Shown: positions 6,083 to 59,611 of the stretch, piece by piece
How the letters are laid out: the number at the start of each line of letters is the position of its first letter
Numbering within the stretch: position 1 is the stretch's first letter
From: Psychroserpens burtonensis DSM 12212
GTDB lineage: Bacteria > Bacteroidota > Bacteroidia > Flavobacteriales > Flavobacteriaceae
Direction: 5' to 3'
DNA length: 64,000 nucleotides
Assembly (NCBI RefSeq): GCF_000425305.1
Contig: NZ_AUDE01000001.1
Location: 186,001 to 250,000 of the forward strand
Made by a program: the position numbers and the translations under genes
Notes under the pieces: model-generated
Databases searched by the model: none
Seen by the model: the letters and a program-made list of their open reading frames with translations, nothing else
Told to the model about the DNA's origin: nothing

Positions 6083-6658
6083 TTACAATTTTGTCACAAC
6101 AAAACTTGTAGGTATCGAGAAATTAAAATTAGGTTCTGGCTCGCCAACAAAATAACCGTAAGCTCCTTTTTCGTTACTTAAAGTTGTTTGCATTTGAGTT
6201 GTGCTTCCGGGTAAAAATTCAAATAATATTACTCCAAATCCCTTATCTAATAGCACATCATAAAAAGTCATATCTAATTTTTGATCTGGGTAAAGAACAC
6301 ATGAAGAATACATGGGATTACCCTCAGGAGTCTCATCTAAAAGTGTTGGTGTAATTGTATTGATGGTGTAAGATGAACCTCCATCTTGAGAATAGCTATA
6401 GTTACCAATTAAAAAATCTTCATACATTTGAGTTTCTGCATTATAAAAATGAGTAACTTTTTCAATTTTAAATGTAATTATTTCATTACCATTGGTATAC
6501 TGCCATACTCCTAAAAAGGGTGTAAAGGTATCGTTTATGTCTTTAAAGTAAGTGCCATTGACAACATCTTCTTCATTCACTCCATTACATAGCTCTACGA
6601 CTTGGCTACTAGCTGTTATAGATATTAAGGCTATAAAAATTATTAATATTGATTTCAT
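6083..6658 (-). CDS. DUF6705-like secreted protein, copy 3
   Basis: 191 residues. The signal peptide (MKSILIIFIALISITASSQ) lacks a lipobox, unlike the copy at 1-338. The core contains GTYFKDINDTFTPFLGVWQY, EIITFKIEKVTH and YEDFLIGNYSYSQDGG. The end is LPGSTTQMQTTL then IPTSFVVTKL. I believe this is the DUF6705 family, small exported proteins of Bacteroidota with no known function. Third in a tandem array transcribed from the lipoprotein at 8002-9447; a hairpin terminator precedes it. Confidence 0.85.
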   Translation of the reverse strand: MKSILIIFIALISITASSQVVELCNGVNEEDVVNGTYFKDINDTFTPFLGVWQYTNGNEIITFKIEKVTHFYNAETQMYEDFLIGNYSYSQDGGSSYTINTITPTLLDETPEGNPMYSSCVLYPDQKLDMTFYDVLLDKGFGVILFEFLPGSTTQMQTTLSNEKGAYGYFVGEPEPNFNFSIPTSFVVTKL

Positions 6659-6690
6659 AGTTTAAAAAAATCGTTTAGGCATACAAAATT

Positions 6691-6733
6691 AAAATAGCAG
6701 CTACAAAAAATTCATTTTCATATCTGCTATTTT
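6691..6733 (-). terminator. Hairpin between array copies 2 and 3
   Basis: 10-bp perfect stem AAAATAGCAG / CTGCTATTTT with T-rich sequence after it on the minus strand. It is part of the repeated unit and may attenuate transcription into copy 3. Confidence 0.55.
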
Positions 6734-6741
6734 ATTACAAT

Positions 6742-7320
6742 TTACAATTTTGTCACAACAAAACTTATCGGTATCGAGAAATTAAAATTATGTGCAGGTT
6801 CTCCCACTAGATGACCGTAAGCTCCTTTCATATTTTCTAAACTAGCTTGCATTTGAGTGGTGCTTCCGGGTAAAAATTCAAAGGTTATTAATCCAAAACC
6901 TTTGACTAGTATAACATCAAAAAATGTCATTGTAACCTTGTTGGGAGAATCTTTAGCACAAGGTGCATACATCACACTAGCATCTGGACTCTCATCTAAT
7001 AAAGATGGTGAGATTTTATTAACAATATTAGTCAAACCACCATCTTGCGAGTAATTATAATTGCCTACAATGAAATCTTCTTATGTTTGGTTTTCGGTAA
7101 CGTAATAATGTGTGATTTTCTCAATTTTAAATGTAATTACTTCGTTACCATTGGTATATTGCCAAGTGCCTAAAAAAGGTGTAAACGTATTGTTAACATC
7201 TTTAAAATAAGTACCACTTGGTGCTTCATCTGGATCGGTTTCATAATTGCAAAGTTCAATAACTTGGCTATTTGCATTTATCGATATTAAAGCAATAATA
7301 ATTATTAGTATTGATTTCAT
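6742..7320 (-). pseudogene. DUF6705-like protein, copy 2, interrupted by in-frame TAA
   Basis: The frame from ATG 7320 to the stop at 6742 is open except for a TAA at 7081-7083. The residues on both sides read ENQT-stop-EDFIVGNYNYSQDGG. The sister copies have a Tyr codon there (QMYEDF), so a single substitution at the third codon position explains it. The C-terminal half is still conserved (LPGSTTQMQASL, IPISFVVTKL), so the lesion looks recent. Alternatively it could be a base-call error. Confidence 0.8.
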
Positions 7321-7352
7321 GTTTTAAAAAAATCGTTTAGGCATACAAAATT

Positions 7353-7395
7353 AAAATAGCAGTTACAAACAACTCATGTTTACAACTGCTATTTT
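7353..7395 (-). terminator. Hairpin between array copies 1 and 2
   Basis: 12-bp perfect stem, AAAATAGCAGTT / AACTGCTATTTT, in the same place of the repeat unit as the hairpin at 6691, with AT-rich sequence after it on the minus strand. Confidence 0.55.
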
Positions 7396-7410
7396 TATAA
7401 TTATACTAAT

Positions 7411-7989
7411 TTACAATTTTGTAACTACAAAACTTGTAGGTATTGAGAAATTAAAATTAGGTTCTGGCTCACCAACAAAATAACCGTAAGCTCCTTGTTC
7501 GTTAGCCAAAGTTGCTTGCATTTGAGTCGTACTTCCCGGTAAAAATTCAAATGTGATTAAACCAAACCCTTTATCTAATAAAACATCATAAAAGGTCATA
7601 GAAAATTTAGCATTTGGATAAAGAACACATGAAGAATACATGGCATTACCTGTTGGAGTTTCAAGTGACGCAAAAGGGTTAATCGTATGTATTATATTTG
7701 TAGTACCTCCATCTTGAGAATAGTTATAGTTACCAATCAAAAAATCTTCATACATTTGAGTTTCTGTATTATAAAAATGGGTTATTTTTTCAATTTTAAA
7801 TGTAATTATTTCGTTACCGTTTATAGATTGCCAAGTACCTAAAAAAGGCGTAAACGTATTGTTTATGTCTTTAAAGTAAGTGCCAATAACAGCGTCGTCG
7901 TCATCGATTTCACTGCTACATATTTCTACAACTTGGCTACTAGCTGTTATTGATATTAAGGCTATAAAAAGTATTAATATTGATTTCAT
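7411..7989 (-). CDS. DUF6705-like secreted protein, copy 1
   Basis: 192 residues, the intact first copy of the tandem array. Signal peptide MKSILILFIALISITASSQ, then GTYFKDINNTFTPFLGTWQ, EIITFKIEKITHFYNTE, YEDFLIGNYNYSQDGG and IPTSFVVTKL. It begins 12 bases after the stop of the large lipoprotein at 8002, so the two are probably cotranscribed. The same gene order is seen at 1-2008, which suggests the two proteins work together at the envelope. Function unknown. Confidence 0.88.
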   Translation of the reverse strand: MKSILILFIALISITASSQVVEICSSEIDDDDAVIGTYFKDINNTFTPFLGTWQSINGNEIITFKIEKITHFYNTETQMYEDFLIGNYNYSQDGGTTNIIHTINPFASLETPTGNAMYSSCVLYPNAKFSMTFYDVLLDKGFGLITFEFLPGSTTQMQATLANEQGAYGYFVGEPEPNFNFSIPTSFVVTKL

Positions 7990-12849: not shown

Positions 12850-12902
12850 TAGGTTTTTGACATCATTCGAATTGTAGACCTATTCAAATTACTGTTGACT
12901 TT

Positions 12903-12926
12903 TCACTTCGAGCGGAGTCGAGAAGC
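12903..12926 (+). repeat. Left inverted repeat, GIY-YIG unit A
   Basis: Begins TCACTTCGAGCGGAGTCGAG. Each arm can itself form an imperfect hairpin (TCGA near one end pairs with TCGA across a CTCCGC loop), as REP sequences do. Confidence 0.8.
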
Positions 12927-12941
12927 AACAAAAAGACAACT

Positions 12942-13256
12942 ATGAAATTCTATTACGTTTACATGCTAAAATGTTCTGACGATTCCATTTATACGGGAAT
13001 GACAAATAGTATTAATAGACGTTTAGAAGAACATAGAATGGGATTAAATCCAGATTGTTATACTTTTAGAAAACGACCTTTACACTTAATTTATCATCAA
13101 GAATTCATGCAGTTTAATCAAGCTGAGTATTATGAGAAGAAAATCAAGAAATGGAGTCAAGGCGAAAAGCTAGCTTTGGCAAATAAAGATTTTGAATTAT
13201 TAAAAGATTTGTCTGTTTGTAGCAATAAATCTCATTCAGATAATTATAAAAAATAA
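12942..13256 (+). CDS. Small GIY-YIG family endonuclease (unit A)
   Basis: 104 residues, a stand-alone URI/YhbQ-type GIY-YIG domain. The signature is YVYMLKCSDDSIYTGMTN, followed by the active-site Arg in NRRLEEH and a Glu-bearing helix (AEYYEKKIKKW). These small nucleases cut one DNA strand in UvrC and homing enzymes; the role of the single-domain forms is not established. Flanking inverted repeats touch both ends of the gene, and the stop codon abuts the right repeat. It lies between a BNR protein and hemJ with no functional link to either. Confidence 0.92.
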   Translation: MKFYYVYMLKCSDDSIYTGMTNSINRRLEEHRMGLNPDCYTFRKRPLHLIYHQEFMQFNQAEYYEKKIKKWSQGEKLALANKDFELLKDLSVCSNKSHSDNYKK

Positions 13257-13280
13257 GCTTCTCGACTCCGCTCGAAGTGA
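13257..13280 (+). repeat. Right inverted repeat, GIY-YIG unit A
   Basis: Exact reverse complement of 12903-12926, starting directly after the TAA of the nuclease gene. It may also act as the gene's transcription terminator. Confidence 0.8.
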
Positions 13281-13351
13281 CAGTAACTTTTAAATTAAGT
13301 TTTCTCGGTTCTGTCAAGCAAAGTCTAGAAACAAAATAATATAAGTTTTAA

Positions 13352-28310: not shown

Positions 28311-28318
28311 AAGCATAA

Positions 28319-28407
28319 TGTCATTCAGAGCGAAGCGAAGAATCTAAAAGAATTATTCAAAGATTCTTCAGTCATTCGATAACTATAGGAACTCCTTCTG
28401 AATGACA
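28319..28407. repeat. Inverted pair of palindromic repeats (short form and long form)
   Basis: The short form is at 28319-28345 (begins TGTCATTCAGAGCGAAGCGA) and the long form at 28361-28407 (begins AGATTCTTCAGTCATTCGAT). They are inverted with a 15-base spacer and share ends: TGTCATTC...GAATCT against AGATTC...GAATGACA. The same pair recurs at 31.4, 32.9 and 33.3 kb. It lies inside the transporter operon and could form a stem that tunes expression of downstream genes. Confidence 0.8.
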
Positions 28408-30288: not shown

Positions 30289-31441
30289 CGCACAACTAGA
30301 AATACAGCTTATTGCGAGTTTGGTAGCTATTGCTTGTGCGATTCCAGGAACTTTTTTAGTCCTTCGGAAAATGGCCATGATAAGCGATGCTATTAGTCAT
30401 TCCATACTGCCAGGAATTGTGGTAGGTTTCTTTATTACTCAAGATTTAAATTCACCATTACTGATATTATTGGCAGCTTTAACTGGCGTTATTACAGTGG
30501 TTTTGGTTGAGTATATACAGAAAACAGGACTCGTAAAAGAAGATACTGCTATTGGTCTCGTTTTTCCTGTATTGTTTAGTATTGGTGTCATTATGATCGC
30601 TAAAAATGCCAACGATGTACATTTAGATATTGATGCGGTATTATTGGGAGAATTGGCTTTTGCGCCTTTTGATCGCCTGCTCATTTCTGGGATTGATGTT
30701 GGCCCAAAATCGCTTTGGGTTATTGGCGTTATTTTATTGATCACAATCGTTTTATTGTTGGCGTTTTTTAAAGAATTGAAGCTAAGTACATTTGATAAAG
30801 GTTTAGCAGCTTCGCTAGGGTTTTCTCCAGTAATTTTGCATTATGGCTTAATGACTGTTTCCTCTATCACAACTGTAGGTTCTTTTGATGCTGTAGGTGC
30901 TATTTTAGTTGTGGCACTTATGATTGCACCGGCAGCAACTGCGTATTTATTAACCACAGATTTGAAGAAAATGTTAGTGCTTTCCATAATCTTTGGAGTC
31001 GTGAGTGCCATTTCGGGCTATTGGTTTGCACATTGGTTGGATGCTTCAATTTCGGGATCAATTACCACAATGCTGGGACTCTTATTTTTGATCGTCTATT
31101 TATTCGCACCAAGCAAAGGGGTTATAGCAGTATTGTATAGAGAAAAACAACAGCGTATTGAGGTATCACTTCTCACATTTTTACTCCATTTAAAAAATCA
31201 TGATGAAGACAATGAGCGTCATGTGAATCATTTAAATGAACATATTAATTGGCAAAAAGTAAGATCTAAAACAGTGTTGGATTTAGCTTTAAGAAATAAT
31301 ATGATTGTGATTGATAATAAAATTGTCTCACTAACTCCAAAAGGAGATATGTTTACCACACAAGCCATCGATTATATTATCACTAATGAAGATACTCAGA
31401 TTGAAGATATGAAGAATGATTTCTTTTTGTTTAGAGGATAG
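30281..31441 (+). CDS. Second metal ABC transporter permease with C-terminal soluble domain
   Basis: 386 residues. Membrane part of about 285 residues (VLRKMAMISDAISHSILPGI, VGAILVVALMIAPAATAYLL), then a soluble tail (LLTFLLHLKNHDEDNERHV ... VLDLALRNNMIVIDNKIVSLTPKGD) that again looks like a small winged helix. Two different permeases make a heterodimeric channel. The 3' end (from 31397) is repeated at 32860-32904, downstream of a decayed gene. Stop codon is followed at once by a palindromic repeat. Confidence 0.92.
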   Translation: MSNAQLEIQLIASLVAIACAIPGTFLVLRKMAMISDAISHSILPGIVVGFFITQDLNSPLLILLAALTGVITVVLVEYIQKTGLVKEDTAIGLVFPVLFSIGVIMIAKNANDVHLDIDAVLLGELAFAPFDRLLISGIDVGPKSLWVIGVILLITIVLLLAFFKELKLSTFDKGLAASLGFSPVILHYGLMTVSSITTVGSFDAVGAILVVALMIAPAATAYLLTTDLKKMLVLSIIFGVVSAISGYWFAHWLDASISGSITTMLGLLFLIVYLFAPSKGVIAVLYREKQQRIEVSLLTFLLHLKNHDEDNERHVNHLNEHINWQKVRSKTVLDLALRNNMIVIDNKIVSLTPKGDMFTTQAIDYIITNEDTQIEDMKNDFFLFRG

Positions 31442-31542
31442 GTTCTTCAGTCGTACCTCCTTCTGAATGACAGTAGTCTTTTAATTAAGAATTTAGTTTT
31501 GATGAGGAATCCAAATGTCATTCAGAGCACAGCGAAGAATCT
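31397..31542 (+). repeat. 146-bp direct repeat, left copy (permease 3' end plus palindromes)
   Basis: Covers the last 15 codons of the permease, a shortened long-form palindrome (31442-31472) and a short-form palindrome (31516-31542). The copy at 32860-33005 is the same length without gaps and differs at scattered bases. The two copies enclose 1.3 kb with a decayed gene. Confidence 0.88.
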
Positions 31543-31604
31543 CCATATTTATTTAATCATGACTTTGGTATCTTTATTGATGTATTAATTAGAAATTAGC
31601 CCTC

Positions 31605-32833: not shown

Positions 32834-32859
32834 AATTTAGGTAGTCTTTGGGATTAATT

Positions 32860-33005
32860 CAGATTGAAGAGATGAAGGATGACTTCTTTTTGTTTAGAGG
32901 ATAGATTCTTCAGTCGTGCCTCCTTCTGAATGACAAAAGTTGTTTGATTAAAGATTTAGTTTTGATGAGGAATCCAAATGTCACTTAGAGCATAGCGAAG
33001 AATCT
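32860..33005 (+). repeat. 146-bp direct repeat, right copy
   Basis: Repeats 31397-31542: the permease C-terminal codons (QIEEMKDDFFLFRG and stop), a shortened long-form palindrome (32903-32935), and a short-form palindrome (32979-33005). The second GIY-YIG gene starts 17 bases later. Confidence 0.88.
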
Positions 33006-33379
33006 TTTATATATTCATCTTATGAAAACAATAGGTACTCATAATTATTACATCTACATTCTTACTAATAAAAATAAAACAGTATTATATACTGGAGTTA
33101 CCAATAATTTAGTAGAAAGGTTATATTTTCATAAAAACCCACTTCCTTTTTCGAAAGCTTTTACAACGAGATATAAATGTTATTATTTGGTTTATTATGA
33201 GCATTATTTTGGAATAGATGATGCTATAAAAAGAGAGAAACAGATTAAAGGAATATCAAGATTTAAAAAAGAGAAGATGATCTCTGAATTTAACTCTCAA
33301 TGGGATTTCCTTAATGACAATATCTAATTAGAGATTCTTCAGTCACTCCGAAAACTATCGGAGTTCCTTCTGAATGACA
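32979..33379 (+). mobile_element. GIY-YIG gene between inverted palindromic repeats (unit B)
   Basis: A short-form palindrome (32979-33005) precedes the GIY-YIG gene and an inverted long-form palindrome (33332-33379) follows it 4 bases after the stop. This is the same architecture as unit A at 12903-13280 but with a different palindrome family and a different nuclease lineage. Transposition is inferred. Confidence 0.45.
33022..33327 (+). CDS. Small GIY-YIG family endonuclease (unit B)
   Basis: 101 residues. GIY-YIG signature YYIYILTNKNKTVLYTGVTN, Arg in LVERLYFHK, Glu helix IDDAIKREKQIKGISRFKKE. It is the other common flavobacterial type (TNKNxTVLYTGVTN) and only distantly similar to the copy at 12942. 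Palindromic repeats lie 16 bases upstream and 4 bases downstream. The neighbourhood is a patch of pseudogenes and repeats, which fits a mobile origin. The cellular role of such single-domain enzymes is unknown. Confidence 0.92.
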   Translation: MKTIGTHNYYIYILTNKNKTVLYTGVTNNLVERLYFHKNPLPFSKAFTTRYKCYYLVYYEHYFGIDDAIKREKQIKGISRFKKEKMISEFNSQWDFLNDNI

Positions 33380-33432
33380 CCAGACTTATGAATGAAAACC
33401 TTTAATGTCATTCAGAGTGAAACGAAGAATCT
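33332..33432. repeat. Long-form then short-form palindromic repeats after GIY-YIG unit B
   Basis: The long form at 33332-33379 holds a perfect inner hairpin (ACTCCGA/TCGGAGT at 33345-33364). The short form at 33406-33432 ends inside the stop codon of the minus-strand gene. Together they lie between convergent genes and probably terminate both. Confidence 0.8.
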
Positions 33433-35585
33433 CAATTAAATGTATCATTTAATTGTTCTAACTCTTTTTTCAATTCCTCAATTGTTACTTCCTTGAAATC
33501 AAAATCTATTTTAGGATTTACCTCAGTTTTGGTGTCCACAGCGTCATAGTAGAGCCTTCCATTTTTACGTTTAACCGCAACCAGAGTAATATCTTCATTT
33601 GCTCCAACAGTTTGAAAATCATAAACGTTATTTTTAAACCGACTAGGCAGAACAGAGCTTAACGATTTAAAAACCATATTAACACTAGTACCTTCAGCAT
33701 TTTTTATTTTGAGCTTATATTTGATGCGTATTGTTCTTCCGTTGATAAAACGATCACAGTTAATCCAACCTAAACTTGAGGTTCTGAGCACATAATAACC
33801 AACGTCTCTTGAAGAAATACTTAAGTCGTCTACATCGTCTAATCTTCCTTCAAACTCTTGAACTGTTACAGTTTCTGTTCCCACTGCGAAACGTTGTTTG
33901 GGTGCGAGTTCAAAAATTCGTCTTGATAGTGTTTGAGTTGTACCCCAAAGTTTTCTAATCACATGTCCACCGCGTGTAATGGAGTCTTTTTCAAGAATTT
34001 TAAATTTAGTGTTTTCCATCTCAAATAATGGTTTTCGCAACATAACTGTTGGCTCTGATTTCGACCCGAAAACACCATAGAGGCGAATTAATTTTTGTTT
34101 TTGATATTGTCGCCATTCGTTTGTAAATATAGAATCTACAGGGAAATCCTTGTCATGCATTACTTCTCTTATGGTCTCTACAAGACCTCTTGTGGTAGAA
34201 TAAAGAGTATCCATTTTAATGCCACTTATGACTTCCTTGTTCAGCCGTATTAAATCTCCCTCATCTCTAATTGTAATATATGCAGATCTCTTTTCTGTAC
34301 CAAATCGGTTAGAATTTTGTTATCCATCAATTTCAAATATAATAGGCAAGGAGTAAGGCACATTAACCGCTTGACCTCGTTGCTTTCCTGGAATCATTTT
34401 TGGCAATAAATTAATCACACGATCTGCTTCATCACTTAATCTAGGGTGAGAACCTCGGGATTGTATAGAGACGATAGATCCTTCTTTATCAATTTTAAAT
34501 ATGGAGTTGACGCGTTGTCTTCCTGATAATCCTAGACCAAGTGCAACATCGGCATTAAATTTTCTAGAAACGAACTTAGAAATAGCATCGGTCATACATT
34601 TTTTTTGAGCTTCATTAGTGCTTTCATCTTCACATCCAAGAAAAACAGGTACTTCATCAACCACATTAAAAGGAACATCTACGATTTCTTCATGAACTAA
34701 TAAGTCATCTACACTGCTATCATTTTGAAGCGTCCAATTAATGTTTTTATCTTCCCATTCTCCCGAAAATAATTGCATGCCTTCCTTTTTGTTTTTCGTC
34801 GGAAATGAGATTTCAATTGGCAAATTGTCTTTTAATTCTAAGGCTATAGCACCTTGATTAGCTTCGATAAGCAACATGCCTCCAGTTTCTAGTTGCTTAC
34901 CATTCGACACAGTTGAAAGATTAGCTAATAAAATATCTGACAGCTTATAATACTCGGTCACTTTTAAATCTATTGTTCCAGAAATAATTTTTCCTGTTTT
35001 AGGGTTTATGAAAGACCCTTTAGATATTTTTAAAATCGTCCCTTCTTTGCATTTAATTATAGTATCATTTTGAGTGTTAATCCTCAAAATTTGTATTTGT
35101 TTTTTTAACGGATTATAAGTTGATTTATCTATTAGTTTCTCTTCGGAAATATCTGTTTGTATAATAATTTCACTAGTAGTTGTGTCTTGAAGAATGATAG
35201 AACCTACAGACGTTTCAGTGTTAAGCTTTCTGTTAGATGTTGAATCTATAATTATAGTATTTAAAGGTTCAGAGTTTGGAGTTGGTTCCATTTCCGAAGT
35301 ATTAAAAACCAATGTATACAACATTACGAATACACCAATAACTAGGATTGAAATTCCTGAAATTTTTAACCATTTTTCAGTATGATATAAATGTTTTGCT
35401 TTTTGGATGTCGTCTTTAATTTCAATGCGTTCTAAGTCATTTATAAAAATAATATGTTCTTCGTAAAGGGTATTAAATTCTACGTCATTTTGAAGTTTAG
35501 ATTCAAAATCTAATCGAGCCTCTTTATAGAGTACATTGTTGAGGTAGTCATTTATGAGTTCTATATATTGGGTGTAAGTTTCCAT
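33432..35585 (-). pseudogene. Membrane-anchored regulator-like protein with TonB-type domain, split by in-frame TAA
   Basis: Reading from ATG 35585, one frame runs 717 codons to 33432 with a single TAA at 34320-34322. The first part (421 residues) has a cytoplasmic helix region, a membrane helix near residues 73-93, an extracytoplasmic beta-rich domain, and a TonB C-terminal-like domain ending VNVPYSLPIIFEIDG. After the stop the same frame continues without a break into 35 codons and then the 260-residue ORF (start 34214) with WINCDRF and LYYDAVDTKTEV motifs. It lies 11 bases after a sigma-factor gene that also has a stop, so this was probably its anti-sigma or co-sensor partner. Alternatively the TonB domain is a natural end and the downstream part is a separate gene; the unbroken frame argues against that. 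Confidence 0.6.
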
Positions 35586-40208: not shown

Positions 40209-40865
40209 ATGCATACTTCCGAAGAAATCATAGAAAAAACTAAAATTTTTGTACAAAAAGAACTTGAAAAAGCCGAAGGTGGTCACGACTGGTTCCACAC
40301 TCTAAGGGTGTTTAACAACTGTTTACTCATCTCTAAAAATGAAAACGTAGATTCTTTAGTGGTGGCATTAGGAGCATTATTGCATGATATTGCAGATAGT
40401 AAGTTTCATGATGGTGATGATACTATTGGTCCTAAAGTTGCTCGTAAATTCTTGTTTGAAAATAATGTTGATTCTAAGGTTATAGAGCATGTGGTCAATA
40501 TTATAAAACACATCTCTTTTAAGGGCGGAGATGAAGCACAAACTTTTTCTTCTGCGGAATTGAGTGTCGTACAAGATGCAGACCGATTAGATGCTATTGG
40601 TGCTATTGGGATTGCTAGGACATTTAATTATGGAGGCTTTAAAAACCGAAAAATATTTGATCCCTCTATAACCCCAAATCTAAAAATAACAAAGGCCGAA
40701 TATAAAACATCTACGGCACCTACAATTAATCATTTCTATGAAAAATTATTACTTTTAAAAGATAGAATGAATACAAAGACAGGTGAAAAGATTGCACTAG
40801 AACGTCATAAATATATGGAGCAGTTCTTAGACCAGTTTTACGCAGAGTGGGATGGTTTTAAATAA
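40209..40865 (+). CDS. HD-domain phosphohydrolase
   Basis: 218 residues. HD motifs in order: GGHDWFHTLRVFNNC (first His), GALLHDIADSKFHDGDD (HD pair) and QDADRLDAIGAIGIARTF. Similar to YedJ-type metal-dependent phosphohydrolases acting on nucleotides; substrate unknown. The 3' 282 bases occur again in decayed form at 41603-41883. Confidence 0.92.
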   Translation: MHTSEEIIEKTKIFVQKELEKAEGGHDWFHTLRVFNNCLLISKNENVDSLVVALGALLHDIADSKFHDGDDTIGPKVARKFLFENNVDSKVIEHVVNIIKHISFKGGDEAQTFSSAELSVVQDADRLDAIGAIGIARTFNYGGFKNRKIFDPSITPNLKITKAEYKTSTAPTINHFYEKLLLLKDRMNTKTGEKIALERHKYMEQFLDQFYAEWDGFK

Positions 40866-41602: not shown

Positions 41603-41883
41603 CGATTAAACGCTATTGGTGCTATTGGGATTGCTAGGACATTAAATTGTGGAGGCTTTAAAAACCGAAAACATTTGATCCCTCTATATCCCCAAATCTA
41701 AAAATAACAAAGGCCGAATACAAAACATCTATTGCAACTACAATTAATTGTTTCTATGAAAAATTATTACTTTTAAAAGATAGAATGAAGACAAAGACAG
41801 GTGAAAAGATTGCATTAGAACGGCATTAATATATAGAGCAGTTTTTAGATCAGTTTTATGCAGAATGGGACGGTGAAAAATAA
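41603..41883 (+). pseudogene. Decayed duplicate of the 3' half of the HD phosphohydrolase gene
   Basis: Matches 40584-40865 over its whole length with one single-base deletion (AAAACATTTG against AAAAATATTTG) and scattered substitutions. The reading frame is broken. Similarity starts in the DRLDAIGAIG codons and stops at the stop codon. No start or promoter. Confidence 0.88.
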
Positions 41884-52307: not shown

Positions 52308-54716
52308 TTAATTAATTGTAATTACTTTTTCTTCGGAAATAAAACGACCTTCATTAGTAACCCCTTCAATGCACAATTTAATTTGCTTCGTTTTTGTGTC
52401 TAGGATTTTTAGATTAATGGCATTCGTTTTATCTAAGGTAATATTTGGAATCCAATCAATTACACCATATTCTCTAAAGAAATTACTATCGTAATTCACG
52501 TATTTTGGGGCGTAAAAAGTTTTTGGAGATGTAAAGGTTAATGGAAGGCTCACTTTTTGATTAAACCCTTTACGTGTATCATTTTTGAATCTTAGTCCTG
52601 GATTTGTATTGATATGAATAGTACCACCATTTCCAACATTACTTGCATCATATTGTTTAATCGTTTTATCTAAAGCTACGTAGTCTATATCACCCATATT
52701 GAAATTTAATAAAACGTCTATATCCATTAATACCTGATTGTTTAAATAAATTTTAGGAATTTCTCGCTTGCCAAAACGAAGAATAGTGAGTTCCATTTTT
52801 CCATTTGGCAACATTAATACTATATAACCTTGCTTGTTTAAATAGGTCATCATGTCTATTTCATGAATTCTTTGCTCATCATCAAACATGTCTAATTTAC
52901 CTGTTGAATAATAAGTTATTAATTTATTAATACGTCTTTTCTCTATGTTGGCTTCAATAAGAACTTCATCGAGTTGTTCAACTGTATTCCATTTAGTATC
53001 AAAAACAGTATCCGAACCATTTGCTTCAAAAACAGTATTTTCTTTGAGAGGTAATACGTTAATAAAATTTTTAATATTTGGAACTTTTGATGGAGAGAAT
53101 TGCAGGTGTAAGCTTGGTTTTTGCATAGTGGTTTTACCAGTAACTTGAGAAAATTCTAATGGATTATTATCTTCTATAAAATAGTTGCTATGGCTAAATG
53201 AACTTTCCTTTTCATCGACAATAAAAGCTAAAGCATCATGGTGTTTTGAGGAATGTAAAATAAATCTACCTTTATCGCTATACGTACTGTTTCCTATAAA
53301 TGAGATGCCAGTTTCAAAGAGATACACTTGTTTTGGAGGCGTATTGAATATGGTATTCCAATCATAACTACTCCAGCCTTGGGTTAATAAGAGATTATCG
53401 AGATCATATTCTTTTTTACTGTCGTTATCTATAAAATAATATTTAGCATTTTCGATATTACTTTTAATATAAGGCTGTACAAGTATATGTGATAGTATAT
53501 TATGATCTGCATTATATGATTTCGTGTCGTTAGGTAGTATAGAAATACTTAAGCGCGCTATGTCCAATGGTTTCATACCACTTAGGGGAACTTGAATTGC
53601 TATTGAATCTTGATATTTTTCTACAAAGGCATCTACCGTTTCTAATAACTCAACCTCATTGCGGTTAAAGAAAAGTCGCTCGAGAATAGGTACATTATTT
53701 TCATTGAATAGGGTTAATATATTTATACCACTAAATAGATTTTTAAACGCAATAGCTTTAACGAGTGTTGTGCTGTTTTTAAATGTAATTGGGATCGTTT
53801 TTGATTGACTTCCATTGTGAATAAACAGTGTGTATGGTTTGTCCTTAATAGTCGGTAAGGTCTCTTTATTGGTTCTAAAAGTTAATGCAATCTTAGAATC
53901 TATTTGATTAAGTGTTATATTGACGCCTCTTTTTTCTATTGTATTTAAATCAAAAGTTTGAATTCTATTTCTAAAATCTAATTCTACTGTATATGAGGTT
54001 TTGCTTTCGTGAATGAAAAGAAATTTACCAAGGCCTACTTGATTCGTTTTAAAAGTAGATACGACTATATTATTGTCGTTTAAAATCCTACCAGTAATAT
54101 TTGGTACACCATATCCAAGTGTATCTTTAATAACAACACCAACGGTATTCTCGGTGTCAGCAACTAGGTGACCACCTTCTGGTAAAAACTGGGCATCTAA
54201 CTTAGAACTTATAATGTTTTTTGAGACATCAGTTGTTGCATTAGGATCTATAATTTTAATATTTTGTGTGTAGAGGTTTTGTTCATCAAAATTCTTCATC
54301 CAATTGGTATAGGCTTTAAAGGTATAGTTACCATTGGCAAAGGTGCTATCAACGCTAAACGTACCATAGCCTTTACCGTCTTTAGTCCAAATAAGTTGCT
54401 CTTTAATAGTATTGTTATTATCATCTGTAATGACGGTATACACATTAGTTGTTTTTGTAGATGGTTTTTTAGTGTTTTTGTCTAATACATAAATACTAAA
54501 CCCAATAGTTTCACCTTTGAGATAAAGCGATTTGTTGAGATGTGCAAAAGCAACTTCTCTCGGGAGATTAACGTACTTGTCAAAAGAAGATTCTAAGTCT
54601 GTTTTATCTTGACCCATACTAATACTAAAGCATAGCAGATTGAATACATAAATAAATAATTTGGTGGTAATTATTTTTGAGATAGCGTATTTTTTTTTCA
54701 CGTAGAGGATTTTCAA
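52308..54716 (-). CDS. Large exported MG2/TonB-plug-like surface protein, copy C
   Basis: 802 residues; a hydrophobic signal segment near 15-35. Residues about 45-160 look like the MG2 domain of alpha-2-macroglobulin family proteins (LPREVAFAHLNKSLYLKGET ... YTFKAYTNWMKNFDEQNLYT). Beta-rich domains follow, then a TonB receptor plug-like segment (MGDIDYVALDKTIKQYDASN) with no barrel. The ending FISEEKVITIN is shared with the two upstream genes. The plug-like part is the most diverged of the three. Probably a periplasmic or surface partner of a SusC-like system. Confidence 0.8.
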   Translation of the reverse strand: MKILYVKKKYAISKIITTKLFIYVFNLLCFSISMGQDKTDLESSFDKYVNLPREVAFAHLNKSLYLKGETIGFSIYVLDKNTKKPSTKTTNVYTVITDDNNNTIKEQLIWTKDGKGYGTFSVDSTFANGNYTFKAYTNWMKNFDEQNLYTQNIKIIDPNATTDVSKNIISSKLDAQFLPEGGHLVADTENTVGVVIKDTLGYGVPNITGRILNDNNIVVSTFKTNQVGLGKFLFIHESKTSYTVELDFRNRIQTFDLNTIEKRGVNITLNQIDSKIALTFRTNKETLPTIKDKPYTLFIHNGSQSKTIPITFKNSTTLVKAIAFKNLFSGINILTLFNENNVPILERLFFNRNEVELLETVDAFVEKYQDSIAIQVPLSGMKPLDIARLSISILPNDTKSYNADHNILSHILVQPYIKSNIENAKYYFIDNDSKKEYDLDNLLLTQGWSSYDWNTIFNTPPKQVYLFETGISFIGNSTYSDKGRFILHSSKHHDALAFIVDEKESSFSHSNYFIEDNNPLEFSQVTGKTTMQKPSLHLQFSPSKVPNIKNFINVLPLKENTVFEANGSDTVFDTKWNTVEQLDEVLIEANIEKRRINKLITYYSTGKLDMFDDEQRIHEIDMMTYLNKQGYIVLMLPNGKMELTILRFGKREIPKIYLNNQVLMDIDVLLNFNMGDIDYVALDKTIKQYDASNVGNGGTIHINTNPGLRFKNDTRKGFNQKVSLPLTFTSPKTFYAPKYVNYDSNFFREYGVIDWIPNITLDKTNAINLKILDTKTKQIKLCIEGVTNEGRFISEEKVITIN

Positions 54717-54818
54717 AAATGATTAACTGCTTTTTTTACAAAAAAAAATATAGCAGCAAAAAACATACCATTTGTTAAATTCTCATAAAACAAAACTGAG
54801 TATCAATTCTATATGATT

Positions 54819-57209
54819 TTAATTGAACGTTATGATTTTTTCTTCGGAAATAAAACTTCCCTGGTTAGCAGTACCCTCAATAAATAATTTTATTTGCTCT
54901 ATATTTTTATCTGCAATTTTAAAGATGAGATTGCCATTATTATCTAGCTTACCATCTGGAATCCATCCAATAACGCCATATTGATTAAAAAAGGCACTTC
55001 GATAGCTTGAGTAAAGTGGGGTATAAAATTTTTTAGGTGATGTAAATGTCAAAGGAATTTTCGCTTCTTGTGAGACATTTTTCGAATAATCACTTTCAAA
55101 TTGTATATTTGGGTCTGTAAATATTTTGATGACACCAGCAGACCCTCTTAATCCCTCACCGAAGCCCGATTTGTCGACCACTATATAATCTACGTTTCTC
55201 ATATTAAGATTGAGTAAAACACTAAAATCTGATAGCATCATTTTATCAAGATAAATTAATGGCGTTAAATTGCCAGAAAGTGTATTTCTTCTTTGAGTTG
55301 TTATACTTAGGGTTACAGCGCTTTGGGTAACATTAAACCCTTGAACGCCTATGTAAGAGGCAAAATCAATATATCTATTACGTGCATTTTCATCAAAAAC
55401 GTCAACCCTTCCTGCTGGTTGTCTTCGTTTTATTTGATCAATTTTAGTTCTTGTTTTTTGAGCATTAATAACAACTAAGTCTAATTCTTGGGCATCAGAA
55501 ATGGAGTTCTTATAAATGGGCTCTTTGATTTTAGAATCATAAATTGATTTTACTTTAAGAGGTAGTATTTTTATGAAATTATCTATTGTGGGTATCGATG
55601 ACGGTGTAAACTGTAAATAGAGACTGGGTTTTTCAACGTCTTGTTTTTTACCTATAGACCCAAAAATAACTTTTTCGTCATCTACTGGCAGTAGACCTTT
55701 AATGGTAAATGATTTCTCCTTTTTTGGTACTTCAATAGTTTGAGTAGAACTATTAATCATGGGGTACATAATGAATTGATTACTCTTAGAGTTATTAATG
55801 TTTGCATTTACTGTAATTCCTTTTTCAAAATCAAATTTTACATTGGGTTCATAGTTGAAAATTGAATTCCACTCATAGCTACTCCAGCCTTGAGTTAATA
55901 GAAGGTTGTCAAGCTCAAATTTTTTCTTTCTGTCAATTGCTGTAAAGTAATAGCGCGCGTTCTCAATATAGCTCTTTACATAAGGTTGTAAATAAGTATA
56001 TGATACTATGTTGTGATTAGTATCATAAGACGAGGTGCCCGATGGAAGAACAGAAACACTTAAATTATGAAATTGTGAGGCATCGATGCTGTTAAATGGA
56101 ACAGAAATCGTAATAGAATCAAAAGATTTAGTCGTGCTAGCTTTTTCAGAATTTAAAATTGAAATCCCATCATAGTTAAAGAACAAGCGTTCCAAAATTG
56201 GATTATTATCTTCATCAAAGAGTGTAATAATATTAATACCTGAGTATAAATCACTAATATTAATCAATTTTGTGATTTCTTGTGTGTCTGTAAAACTAAA
56301 ATCTAATGATTTTATTAAGCTTCCATTATGAATGATAATTCTAAAATTCTTGTCCTTAATGTTTTGTAACGTATTTGCATTTGATCTAAAAGTTAATGCA
56401 ATCTTACTACCTAGATTATTAAGGCTTAAATTTAATCCTGTTCGTTCTGCAGGTTTAATATTTACTTGAGAGGTCAGCTCATCATAGGTTATTTCTGCAG
56501 TATAATCTTTCCCTTCTGATGGAGTAAATATGAATTTCCCAATACCAAATTGGTTCGTTTTAAAAGTAGTAATGAGTTCTCCGTTGGAGTCTTTAATAGT
56601 GCCATCAGCTTCTCTTAATCCGTAGCCATTATCATCTTTAATAATAACGCCAACTACATTTTTAATATTTGAAATTAAGTGACCTCCTTCTGGTAAAAAC
56701 TGAGTATCTAAAACGGGAGCGTCCATTGTTGTGGATACATCATTCTCGTCGTCAGTATTTATAATTTTAATATTTTGTAAATAAAAATTTTGCTCGTCAA
56801 AATTTTTCATCCAGTTAGTGTATGCTTTAAAGGTGTAGCTTCCAGAAGCGTAGGTGCTGTCTATTAAAAAACTACCATTTGCCACGCCATTCTCAGCGAG
56901 AATAAGAGCTTTATTTAAGACTCTCCCTTTGCTATTGGCAATCGAACAGTAGACGTTTGTGGTGACATCAGAGTGATTTTTACTACTCTTGTCAAAAACA
57001 TATACACTAAAACCAATAGTTTCTTCTTTTAGATACAATGATTTGTTGAGATGAGCATAAGCAATTTCTCGTGGTAATTTCGCATAATTACTGTAGGAAG
57101 CAGATAACTTGTCTTGGTTTTGGCTTTTAGCATTAAAAAATGAAAACACACATAATAAAAGAAGTGTATATTTTATTTGAGAAAATTTGAGGCAATCGTT
57201 TTTAATCAT
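54819..57209 (-). CDS. Large exported MG2/TonB-plug-like surface protein, copy B
   Basis: 796 residues. Signal segment (YTLLLLCVFSFFNAKSQ), MG2-like domain (LPREIAYAHLNKSLYLKEET), central beta domains with LTQGWSSYEWNSIFN, and a plug-like segment near 690 (NVDYIVVDKSGFGEGLRGSA then GVIKIFTD) that closely copies TonB receptor plugs. Ends FISEEKIITFN. Starts 5 bases after the stop of copy A, so these two are one operon; 102 bases separate it from copy C. Confidence 0.82.
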   Translation of the reverse strand: MIKNDCLKFSQIKYTLLLLCVFSFFNAKSQNQDKLSASYSNYAKLPREIAYAHLNKSLYLKEETIGFSVYVFDKSSKNHSDVTTNVYCSIANSKGRVLNKALILAENGVANGSFLIDSTYASGSYTFKAYTNWMKNFDEQNFYLQNIKIINTDDENDVSTTMDAPVLDTQFLPEGGHLISNIKNVVGVIIKDDNGYGLREADGTIKDSNGELITTFKTNQFGIGKFIFTPSEGKDYTAEITYDELTSQVNIKPAERTGLNLSLNNLGSKIALTFRSNANTLQNIKDKNFRIIIHNGSLIKSLDFSFTDTQEITKLINISDLYSGINIITLFDEDNNPILERLFFNYDGISILNSEKASTTKSFDSITISVPFNSIDASQFHNLSVSVLPSGTSSYDTNHNIVSYTYLQPYVKSYIENARYYFTAIDRKKKFELDNLLLTQGWSSYEWNSIFNYEPNVKFDFEKGITVNANINNSKSNQFIMYPMINSSTQTIEVPKKEKSFTIKGLLPVDDEKVIFGSIGKKQDVEKPSLYLQFTPSSIPTIDNFIKILPLKVKSIYDSKIKEPIYKNSISDAQELDLVVINAQKTRTKIDQIKRRQPAGRVDVFDENARNRYIDFASYIGVQGFNVTQSAVTLSITTQRRNTLSGNLTPLIYLDKMMLSDFSVLLNLNMRNVDYIVVDKSGFGEGLRGSAGVIKIFTDPNIQFESDYSKNVSQEAKIPLTFTSPKKFYTPLYSSYRSAFFNQYGVIGWIPDGKLDNNGNLIFKIADKNIEQIKLFIEGTANQGSFISEEKIITFN

Positions 57210-57214
57210 TTTTT

Positions 57215-59611
57215 TTAGTTAATAGTTATAATTTTTTCTTCGGAAATAAAAGCACCGTCATTGGCGGTACCTTCTATAAATAATTTTATTTGTTTGATTT
57301 TAGTGTCTAATACTTTGAATCTTATGATGCTCTTATCATTGATTTCACATTTAGGAAACCAATCAATCACACCATAATTTTGATAAAAATCATTTAAATA
57401 TGTGGAGTATAATGGTGTATAAAACTTTTTTGACTCAGAAAATGTTAAAGGAAATTCTATTTCTTGTCCGGAATCCCAAGACACATTGTACTCACGTGTT
57501 CTCAGCATATAATTAGTATATATTTTTATGACACCATTAGCGCCTCTTATACCTTCACCTAAACCAGACTTATCAATAATAACATAATCCATCGTGGACA
57601 TGTCTATGTCCATTAAAATTCTTTGGTCATTGACCACTAAATCATTTAAGTAAATTAGCGGTTGAGAATTCATTTCAAATGAAGTTTTTCTAGGCAAATC
57701 TATTAATAATGATCTGGGATCTCTAAAATCCTGAAAAACACTGAAGCCTTTTGTGCCTATGTAAGATGCAAAGCTCGTGGTATTTTTACGTCTAGAATCA
57801 TTAAATACATCGACCCTACCTTTATTAAAACGTTTTATTTTTTCAATACGTTTCTCCTCTTTTTTTACTGATAAAAGGACGGTATCTAATGCCTCAATTT
57901 TATTCCAAGATTCATCAAGTATGGGTAAGGATGCATCATATTTAAAAGCGTTCTTGTTTTTATACTTCAGCGATGTGTATTTATGTTCTAAACTTGGAAT
58001 TTCCATAGGTGAAAATTGAACATAAAGATTTGGTTTTAAAACACGATCCTTTTTATCGATAACGCCAATTTTTAGGGGTTCATTTTCTAAAGGTAAAAGT
58101 CCTCCAGCAGAGAAATTACGTTCACCGTTTTTTATAGTTAGAGTAATACTGGGCGAATTTTGTAGTGGAGAGAATAAAAATTTGTTGCCTTTTGTATTAT
58201 TCAAGCTCGCATTTATGGTAATGCCATTTTCAAATTCAAATTGATTGGTAGGTGCAGTATTAAAAATAGTAGTCCAGTCATTACTGCTCCAACCTTGAGT
58301 TAATAATAGATTATCTAATTCTGATTTCTTATTATTATCAATATTAGTAAAATAGTATCGCGCATTTTCAATACAACCTTTGACGTATGGTTGTAATAAT
58401 GTTGATGAGAAAATATTATGATGATGATTATAAGATTTTGTTTCGGCAGGTAAAACCGAAATACTCAAATTATTAAATTGCTTTGTATTAATGCTAGCTG
58501 AAGGAATTGTAATTAATAAAGAATCCTTTAATTTCTCAACACTTGGAACTCCTATTACAATAGATTTAATCCCATCATGTTTAAAATATAAACGCTCTAG
58601 TACAGGTTTGTTATTTTTATTAAAGAGTGTAATAATGTTAATTCCAGTATTAAAATCTATTAGATTAATTAGAGCCTTAATTTCGGTTTTATCTTTAAAT
58701 GCAATATCAGACACATTTAATTGACTGCCATTACCAATAGCAAGTTTAAATGATTCGTTTGCGATATTTGGCAATGTGCTTTCGTTAGTTCTAAATACTA
58801 AAGCTACTTTATCATTTAAATCTTGAAGACTCATATTAACGCCTTGAGGTTCTCCAATATCAAGTGTGATTGTTGTGGCTTCTTCATCACTAAGTTCAAC
58901 GGTGTAGACTGTTCTGCTTTTTGGAGTGAATTTAAATTTTGAGATCCCGTGACTATTCGTTTCAAAGTTGGCTACTTCTTCACCATTAGTATTTAAAACG
59001 CGACCTTTTAAATAGGGCACACCAAAACCATAATCATCTTTAATAACCACACCAACGGTGTTTTTAGCATTGAGTAATAAATGACCACCTTCTGGCAGAA
59101 ACTGTGCATCCAAGTCAAAATACTTGTCATCATCAGCATCTATAAATGAATGTTTATCTGGATTAATAACTTTTAAATGCTGCACATAAAAGTTTTGCTC
59201 TTCAAAATTGCGCATCCAATTGGTGTAGGCTTTGAAAACGTAGTTTCCAGATTTAAAGAGACTATCAATTTTAAAAATGCCCGATGCAACACCATTTTTG
59301 GCTAAAATCATTTTCTTTTTTATAATCTTGCCAGACCTGTTTTGGATGGTACAATACACGTTTTTTGTAAGTAAAGAGGATGTCTTAGTGTACTTATCCA
59401 ATAGGTAAATTGAGAACCCTAAGCTTTCACCTTTTATTAAAGTAGATTTGTTTAAATGACCATAAGCTATCTCTCTTGGTAGTTCGGAGTAATTTTTATA
59501 AGCATCAAAAAGATACTCATCATTTGGTTGTTGCGAATTTGCGATGAAAAAAATGAGACTAAATAATACCAAGATAACATAGTTAGGCTTATGAGGTAGT
59601 ACATTTTTCAT
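57215..59611 (-). CDS. Large exported MG2/TonB-plug-like surface protein, copy A
   Basis: 798 residues; first gene of the tandem trio. Signal segment (YVILVLFSLIFFIANSQ), MG2-like domain (LPREIAYGHLNKSTLIKGES ... YVFKAYTNWMRNFEEQNFYV), central part with LTQGWSSNDWTTIFN, plug-like segment (STMDYVIIDKSGLGEGIRGA then NGVIKIYTN), and the common ending FISEEKIITIN. The three proteins are full length and diverged along their whole length, so the duplication is old. Function unknown. Confidence 0.82.
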   Translation of the reverse strand: MKNVLPHKPNYVILVLFSLIFFIANSQQPNDEYLFDAYKNYSELPREIAYGHLNKSTLIKGESLGFSIYLLDKYTKTSSLLTKNVYCTIQNRSGKIIKKKMILAKNGVASGIFKIDSLFKSGNYVFKAYTNWMRNFEEQNFYVQHLKVINPDKHSFIDADDDKYFDLDAQFLPEGGHLLLNAKNTVGVVIKDDYGFGVPYLKGRVLNTNGEEVANFETNSHGISKFKFTPKSRTVYTVELSDEEATTITLDIGEPQGVNMSLQDLNDKVALVFRTNESTLPNIANESFKLAIGNGSQLNVSDIAFKDKTEIKALINLIDFNTGINIITLFNKNNKPVLERLYFKHDGIKSIVIGVPSVEKLKDSLLITIPSASINTKQFNNLSISVLPAETKSYNHHHNIFSSTLLQPYVKGCIENARYYFTNIDNNKKSELDNLLLTQGWSSNDWTTIFNTAPTNQFEFENGITINASLNNTKGNKFLFSPLQNSPSITLTIKNGERNFSAGGLLPLENEPLKIGVIDKKDRVLKPNLYVQFSPMEIPSLEHKYTSLKYKNKNAFKYDASLPILDESWNKIEALDTVLLSVKKEEKRIEKIKRFNKGRVDVFNDSRRKNTTSFASYIGTKGFSVFQDFRDPRSLLIDLPRKTSFEMNSQPLIYLNDLVVNDQRILMDIDMSTMDYVIIDKSGLGEGIRGANGVIKIYTNYMLRTREYNVSWDSGQEIEFPLTFSESKKFYTPLYSTYLNDFYQNYGVIDWFPKCEINDKSIIRFKVLDTKIKQIKLFIEGTANDGAFISEEKIITIN

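Follow-up and report, generated by a model that had tools for sequence, protein, structure and literature searches.

A small GIY-YIG nuclease gene framed by inverted cognate repeats in Psychroserpens burtonensis, probably one copy of a widespread two-part element

In a 64,000-nucleotide stretch of the Psychroserpens burtonensis DSM 12212 genome (assembly GCF_000425305.1, contig NZ_AUDE01000001.1, positions 186,001 to 250,000; hereafter the window), a gene for a single-domain GIY-YIG nuclease is enclosed by two exact inverted copies of a short repeat similar to repetitive extragenic palindromes (REPs). We refer to the gene and its repeats as unit A, and to the repeat as REP-A. That unit A is a real element, in which gene and repeat are paired, is very nearly certain. 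It is probably one copy of a widespread two-part element made of a small GIY-YIG gene and two cognate hairpin repeats placed tail to tail. The observations behind this are the framing of such genes by inverted repeats, a repeat specific to the nuclease clade, a covarying repeat stem, an empty site in relatives, and unit-sized copies that lie in different contexts in Rhizobium. In what follows, handles such as G002 and L098 denote genomes and loci.

Unit A and the small GIY-YIG genes of the genome

The first-pass annotation of the window had described a perfect 24-bp inverted repeat with nothing but a nuclease gene inside, and both statements hold. The two arms (12903-12926 and 13257-13280) are exact reverse complements with a spacing of 330 nt; the left one ends 15 nt before the ATG of the open reading frame (ORF), while the right one begins at the first base 3' of the stop codon. 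Each gene was given a framing score, that of the best inverted repeat formed between its two 250-nt flanks, and was counted as framed at 13 or more; unit A scores 24. GIY-YIG is the sole Pfam match of the 104-aa protein, at 63.7 bits against a cut-off of 22.6. The protein carries the conserved Y, Y-G, R, H and E positions of the domain, and its active site looks intact, since Y7, Y17, G19, R27, H31 and E65 never vary among the 26 aligned members of its clade (the A clade). The core of REP-A, TTCGAGCGGAGTCGAGAA, occurs at 10 sites with at most two mismatches in the 3.98-Mb genome, two of these sites being the arms of unit A, whereas the reversed control of this core occurs at none. This difference, along with the tag and proximity enrichments given below, excludes a chance origin of the repeats.

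Seven GIY-YIG matches are present in the genome (68 contigs), and four of them are small genes. Three of these four adjoin repeats, each of a different kind: repeat A (core TCGAGCGGAGTCGA), repeat B (TTCAGAGCGAAGCGAAGAA; REP-B) and, at the small gene on C12 (the C12 unit), repeat CCTGCGNAGGCAGG, with a framing score of 15.5. Repeat B belongs to unit B, which had been reported in the same window as a unit with another repeat and another nuclease lineage. Unit B does exist, though it is partly decayed and its framing score is only 11.0; its protein matches GIY-YIG at 52 bits, and the gene is preceded by the different repeat and followed by an inverted copy that carries an insertion.

Framing of GIY-YIG genes

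Framing repeats concentrate at GIY-YIG genes, which was one of the checks named by the first-pass annotation. The close-relative set comprised 57 genomes, P. burtonensis included, in which 79 of 88 places were scored; among the matches listed, 27 of the 79 GIY genes are framed, against 36 of 1315 other genes (Fisher test, 2e-19). A strict motif finder gave lower counts for the close relatives (7 of 78 framed within 120 nt, against 2 of 1315) because it misses REP-A and most copies of REP-B.

A second set consisted of the best 80 of 444 relatives of a Sinorhizobium gene, taken from named genomes; 79 were scored, 54 of them in Alphaproteobacteria. Within these best 80 of 444, framing was found for 54 of 79 GIY genes against 30 of 1118 others, and a score of at least 20 for 45 GIY genes against 11 others. 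The 54 framed loci, 40 of which are alphaproteobacterial, span 36 gene contexts, as counted by a clustering in which a contig break may pass for a new context. According to the record titles, from which phylum ranks were taken, they belong to seven named phyla: Pseudomonadota, Myxococcota, Chloroflexota, Ignavibacteriota, Calditrichota, Thermodesulfobacteriota and Bacteroidota.

For the A clade itself, 296 genomes of the phylum gave 72 matches in 54 genomes. Framing was found at 23 of the 30 loci retrieved, unit A included, against none of 61 neighbouring genes. Long GIY-YIG genes such as UvrC are rarely framed (1 of 29, with 9 of 38 not scored). Six of the 22 plasmid records with a relative were inspected by eye; in the four from Alphaproteobacteria, repeats lie on one side of the gene or on both, and the two Cupriavidus records have none.

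Repeat pairs and what they enclose

The same association was recovered from the repeats, with no proteins used. Neighbouring copies lying tail to tail and 250-600 bp apart were collected, and what they enclose was recorded. All 12 such pairs enclose a GIY-YIG gene: 6 of 6 for the C12-type repeat (148 sites in the 57 genomes), 2 of 2 for the A-type repeat (100 sites), 2 of 2 for a rhizobial-type repeat (80 sites in two genomes, both pairs in G058) and 2 of 2 for a generic A-class pattern (150 of the listed sites). GIY-YIG genes are the only ones enclosed by tail-to-tail pairs in the four repeat lists checked. One of the A-type pairs is unit A; the other, in another genus, surrounds a decayed gene 53% identical to A over 87 residues. 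Over the same range of distances, two same-orientation pairs enclose a GIY gene (one of them in a cluster in G273) and one does not (G000:C1:54006), while one head-to-head pair lies beside a GIY gene (G024:C12) and another around one (S. meliloti). Proximity is enriched as well: a listed small GIY gene lies no more than 300 bp from 14 of 148 C12-type copies and from 5 of 100 A-type copies, where 0.06 and 0.04, respectively, were expected.

Repeats of the A class also form short inverted doublets of 26-78 bp, and outside one cluster 20 of 20 are tail to tail. In the A-type and C12-type lists, seven short doublets are tail to tail and two are head to head, both in G002. The doublets mostly share the ends of a full unit without its gene, as miniature derivatives would. 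Separately, G273 has a cluster of at least 13 A-class repeats, mostly in one orientation, around one A-clade nuclease gene (G273:C1:254099-255833).

Repeat type and nuclease clade

Nuclease clades track repeat types, another check that the first-pass annotation had named, and it is the clade and not the genome that the repeat type follows. Among small GIY genes of the close relatives, a flank-similarity score of at least 15 was found in 86 of 230 pairs from different genomes whose nucleases are at least 50% identical (16 of the pairs being syntenic), against 4 of 82 pairs from the same genome with less than 50% identity. For different-genome pairs below 35% identity, it was found in 35 of 1387. 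When mapped onto a tree of 94 nucleases whose repeat has a GTC or CTC tag, hairpin classes require 21 changes and tags 12, the minimum among within-set shuffles being 26 for each, although host descent could contribute to this result in the second set.

Among genomes that have an A-clade nuclease, 26 of 31 contain at least four A-class sites, against 18 of 242 without one and 3 of 23 with a weak relative only; in the family of P. burtonensis, the figures are 19 of 19 with and 5 of 11 without. Other A-clade genomes hold up to 64 such sites. Fourteen genomes rich in A-class sites and without an A-clade nuclease were considered further, two of which (G060 and G332) are without any small GIY gene. 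In the other twelve, none of the 21 small GIY genes examined has an A-class site within 250 nt; for 10 of these 21, inverted repeats of another type provide a frame, which in about four cases is terminator- or tRNA-like.

Structure of the repeats

Repeats of the REP-A class combine the tag GTCA with an outer stem of 3 bp, which is variable, and a conserved, bulged core, YGAGCNNNGTCGAR. Across 119 distinct sites, the three outer-stem pairs are complementary in 113, 112 and 110 cases (shuffle means 66, 32 and 35), and all four Watson-Crick types are present in pairs 2 and 3. In a unit, the tag GTCA points outward and the tail towards the gene, which gives the tail-to-tail arrangement; the right copy of unit A carries a TGTC tag and the left copy is degenerate.

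When the three bases before any hairpin near close-relative GIY genes were scanned, GTC was found 5-fold enriched (29 near, 46 far). The tails of these hairpins are mostly CTC or CCA, and the other enriched common tags, AGA (4.2-fold) and GAG (3.7-fold), resemble the complement of the tails. Across loci, the element often reads YGTC, followed by a hairpin starting A-T and a tail CCA or CTC. The C12-type repeat folded alone reaches -7.7 kcal/mol (z -4.6).

Empty site and copies of the unit

Strains with an empty site, which the first-pass annotation had proposed to look for, were found among the relatives. Each of the 23 searched genomes of the genus has the right-hand neighbour gene of unit A, and in 13 of 22 congeners this gene directly adjoins the left-hand one (0-8 nt). 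A single repeat occupies the junction in G004, G013 and G019, a head-to-head doublet with no nuclease in G002, and 78 nt with no clear repeat in G014; the four others (G003, G016, G018 and G021) have no clear junction. In this comparison, the arrangement repeat-nuclease-repeat occurs at the junction only in P. burtonensis (G000), within 502 bp (Table 1). A decayed third repeat of G000 matches, by eye, the second arm of the G002 doublet.

Copies of a whole unit in different contexts were found in Rhizobium (pairs L180/L264, L203/L227 and L179/L203). They share their ends: identity is 86-87% between the outer tags, and homology stops 2-10 bases beyond them. Two of the pairs lie within one genome, L180/L264 and L203/L227, and the L227 gene is split in two frames. 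Copies in different contexts with shared ends are a trait of transposable elements, seen here for the Rhizobium units; an empty site in relatives, seen here for unit A, is another. Stop codons interrupt 5 of the 72 matches obtained for the A clade.

Discussion

The reading that we prefer, and consider likely, is that the REP-GIY-REP unit is mobile and that its nuclease cuts its own repeat. A bolder reading, at a probability of roughly 0.4, is that several single-domain GIY-YIG clades are the missing dedicated enzymes of YGTC/CGTC REPs in at least seven phyla, each clade reading its own hairpin, and that a hydrolytic cut with host repair spreads single repeats, miniature doublets and whole units. 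The recurrence of such enzyme-repeat pairs in many bacteria suggests that nucleases of this kind are the partners so far lacking for a large and ancient group of dispersed repeats. In the preferred scheme, the nuclease would recognise the tag and hairpin of its own repeat, probably as a single strand or a cruciform, and would cut beside it. Since GIY-YIG enzymes act by hydrolysis, with no covalent intermediate, the joining would be left to the host, whose repair or replication would join the ends and copy the repeat, a short doublet or a whole REP-GIY-REP unit elsewhere. The element would then work like a REPtron (a REP-associated tyrosine transposase, or RAYT, with its REPs) in which a hydrolytic nuclease replaces the HUH transposase. 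The parts of this scheme differ in strength: it is likely that the nuclease cuts its own repeat, and there is about an even chance that this cut is what spreads the repeats.

Several results weigh against the preferred reading. In the close relatives alone, the tree test for hairpin classes is not significant (8 changes; shuffle minimum 8, mean 10.9). Repeats and enzyme also occur apart: three of the 31 A-clade genomes are without any site of the pattern (G050, G127 and G204), and the 18 genomes mentioned above have at least four A-class sites and no A-clade nuclease. The extreme case is G060, with a large orphan family of 236 A-class sites, no small GIY gene and no Y1 transposase. Since such orphan repeats exist, above all in G060, a simple dependence of the repeat on the nuclease is disfavoured; they could be accounted for if the enzyme was lost once the repeats had multiplied. 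The majority of repeat copies lie away from GIY genes, and it is therefore paired framing, and not mere presence, that is the specific feature. Not all small GIY genes are framed, as the fourth one of P. burtonensis (C8:58115) scores 9.5 and has no such repeat. Among the 27 close-relative genes counted as framed, eight (L098, L128 twice, L131 twice, L138 and L140 twice) have arms that resemble tRNAs or terminators, which leaves 19; in some of these (L125, L086 and one of L085), the aligned arm is without a GTC tag. The two head-to-head doublets of G002 depart from the orientation of the units. Inspection by eye revealed no target-site duplication flanking the Rhizobium copies, where no exact empty-site pair was aligned. 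Finally, each repeat had been said to fold by itself; this fails for REP-A by energy, as it reaches -1.5 kcal/mol when folded alone as DNA, no better than its shuffles. The pairing as such stands, since the covariation of the outer stem places it under selection despite the weak isolated hairpin.

The strongest competitor, which we consider unlikely all the same, is an Ssn-like role: a site-specific single-stranded nuclease that serves the host or its transformation, cuts incoming or exposed strands at the repeat and so shapes uptake and recombination, with dispersal slow or incidental. Ssn enzymes, reportedly described in Nature Communications in 2025, are GIY-YIG nucleases whose reported target is single-stranded DNA carrying a repeat that Neisseria has in hundreds of copies; thousands of homologs are reported to exist. 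The likeness to this Ssn/NTS pair lies in the anatomy, namely a small GIY-YIG protein with a multicopy cognate repeat that also occurs near the gene (10 sites in the P. burtonensis genome), and the conserved active-site residues of the A clade fit a maintained activity. A mobile or selfish element is nevertheless a better fit than a fixed host function to units that lie in many contexts and are absent from the orthologous junction of congeners, and to broken copies such as the stop-interrupted matches and the split L227 gene. If this account of Ssn holds, a pairing of enzyme and repeat is already known in kind, and the additions made here are the REP-framed mobile unit, the empty site, the miniature doublets, the distinct repeat classes A and B and a connection with the CGTC super-family. 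The first-pass annotation had suggested an undescribed class of REP-associated GIY-YIG elements; the class is upheld by the framing, the clade tracking and the empty site, while the word undescribed is doubtful in view of what is reported for Ssn.

Considerably less probable is that a free-standing GIY-YIG homing gene enters between the arms of pre-existing doublets, which spread by other means. Nuclease-free doublets are mostly oriented like the framed units, and the G002 junction holds one without a nuclease, as homing would have it. That doublet, however, is head to head, and the G000 nuclease lies outside its counterpart and not between its arms. Homing is also hard to reconcile with a repeat type that follows the nuclease clade across genomes, or with the lack of REP-A sites at all 21 non-A small GIY genes examined in REP-A-rich genomes.

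A passive association, with the repeats as ordinary terminators or mRNA-end elements beside short genes, is very improbable. It could draw on the eight tRNA- or terminator-like cases and on the many copies away from GIY genes, but framing is rare both for the other genes in these loci and for long GIY-YIG genes, and the repeat-only test yields GIY genes alone; passive terminators are ruled out by the control genes (30 of 1118 and 0 of 61) and by the long GIY-YIG genes (1 of 29). Least probable of all is that a RAYT or other Y1 transposase moves the repeats with the GIY gene as passenger: three of six genomes checked do have Y1 transposases (G129, G092 and G188), but G332 and G060 have no match, the zero Y1_Tnp matches in the P. 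burtonensis genome rule out a RAYT as the mover there, and the 2013 survey saw no CGTC repeat flanking a tyrosine transposase gene (PMC3733652).

The preferred reading, in which the nuclease is the partner of its repeats, can be set beside known systems. The nearest solved structures by sequence to the unit A protein are the UPF0213 proteins PDB 1zg2 (E 9.6e-9) and 1ywl (E 9e-8), over residues 2-80. We know of no repeat partner for UPF0213 GIY-YIG proteins. The REPtron is a RAYT (TnpAREP) with GTAG-tagged REPs (PMC3733652, PMC6006769, PMC8266576). Unit A resembles it in having a gene between inverted copies of a tagged palindrome, a dispersed cognate repeat and doublets, and in that repeat and enzyme change together, here with orphan exceptions such as G060. 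It differs in its enzyme, which is GIY-YIG where the REPtron has an HUH/Y1 tyrosine transposase, and in its tag, GTC(A) as opposed to GTAG.

CGTC-tagged REPs have been found in five phyla; a dedicated transposase is apparently absent, and TGTC and CCTC are frequent forms of the tag (Di Nocera et al. 2013, PMC3733652). Many of our loci (Rhizobium, Dehalococcoidia and others) have the YGTC tag, the A-T-starting hairpin and often the CCA tail of this super-family, and REP-C of the close relatives fits as well. The A-T-starting stem of 8-9 bp with a loop of 4-5 nt is found in REP-C and at many loci but not in REP-A; the cores of REP-A and REP-B are bulged, and REP-A has a short variable outer stem and a tail other than CCA. 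REP-A, whose right copy in unit A shares the unpaired tag of the CGTC super-family in its TGTC form, is related to this super-family, yet distinct from it. No transposase partner is reported there, whereas here a GIY-YIG gene is the partner. Penelope-like retroelements likewise have a GIY-YIG domain that serves a mobile element, but these are eukaryotic retroelements, and hairpin-repeat framing is not mentioned in the available part of that paper (PMC3846280). A literature search on titles and the starts of abstracts gave no paper linking GIY-YIG nucleases with REP repeats, exact term pairings being empty too, and the words 'nuclease', 'transposase' and 'RAYT' do not occur in the accessible text of a 2025 REP survey tool (PMC12306157).

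A nuclease that lies between CGTC-like repeats and changes with them makes the question of their partner gene concretely and cheaply testable. Were the preferred reading true, a plain hydrolytic nuclease would be able to sustain a mobile repeat family, and many nuclease/hairpin pairs with readable specificity would be at hand.

Other features of the window and further observations

The features of both units are collected in Table 1. Beside unit B, a 147-bp duplication, 90% identical (31396-31542 and 32859-33005), comprises the end of a transporter gene and a REP-B copy, and flanks a decayed stretch on both sides.

Table 1. Features of units A and B, with further REP-B copies, in window coordinates
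Feature	Position	Strand	Basis
Whole additional 502 bp separating two genes that lie 0-8 nt apart in 13 of 22 congeners	12850..13351		junction comparison
Left REP-A copy, degenerate tag TTTCA for TGTCA	12903..12926	+	class consensus GTCA-NNN-YGAGCNNNGTCGAR-N'N'N'
Single-domain GIY-YIG nuclease gene, 104 aa	12942..13256	+	ORF, Pfam match
Right REP-A copy including TGTCA tag; tail abuts stop codon, tag outward	13257..13283	-	sequence
Degenerate third REP-A; with the right copy matches the doublet at the G002 junction	13310..13331	+	by eye
REP-B copy	28316..28348	+	sequence comparison
REP-B copy	31513..31545	+	sequence comparison
Upstream REP-B copy of unit B (TGTCACTTAGAGCATAGCGAAGAATCT)	32979..33005	+	sequence comparison
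Unit B GIY-YIG nuclease gene, 101 aa, clade other than A	33022..33327	+	ORF, Pfam match
Downstream REP-B of unit B, inverted, with internal extra hairpin	33332..33379	-	by eye
Further REP-B copy 3' of unit B	33406..33433	+	sequence comparison

A second arrangement of small GIY-YIG genes, often in tandem arrays of two to four, was seen near tRNA genes (L098, L103, L105, L128, L131, L138, L140, L334, L342, L343, L349 and L363); of 13 loci of this kind that were scanned, 12 have a tRNA. At L098 (9744-10190) and L103 (9826-10274; G035), the 3' end of the tRNA is repeated after the gene, and the two copies, from one genome, are 96.6% identical over 522 bp. This arrangement looks like a tRNA-end-associated mobile GIY-YIG element.

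Elsewhere in the window, a gene of about 190 aa is present in three tandem copies, the middle one split into two frames (6083-7989). The 3' part of a 218-aa gene (40209-40865) has a partial second copy, apparently a truncated duplicate (40584-40865 and 41603-41883, 89-94% identical), and three paralogous genes of about 800 aa stand in tandem at 52308-59611.
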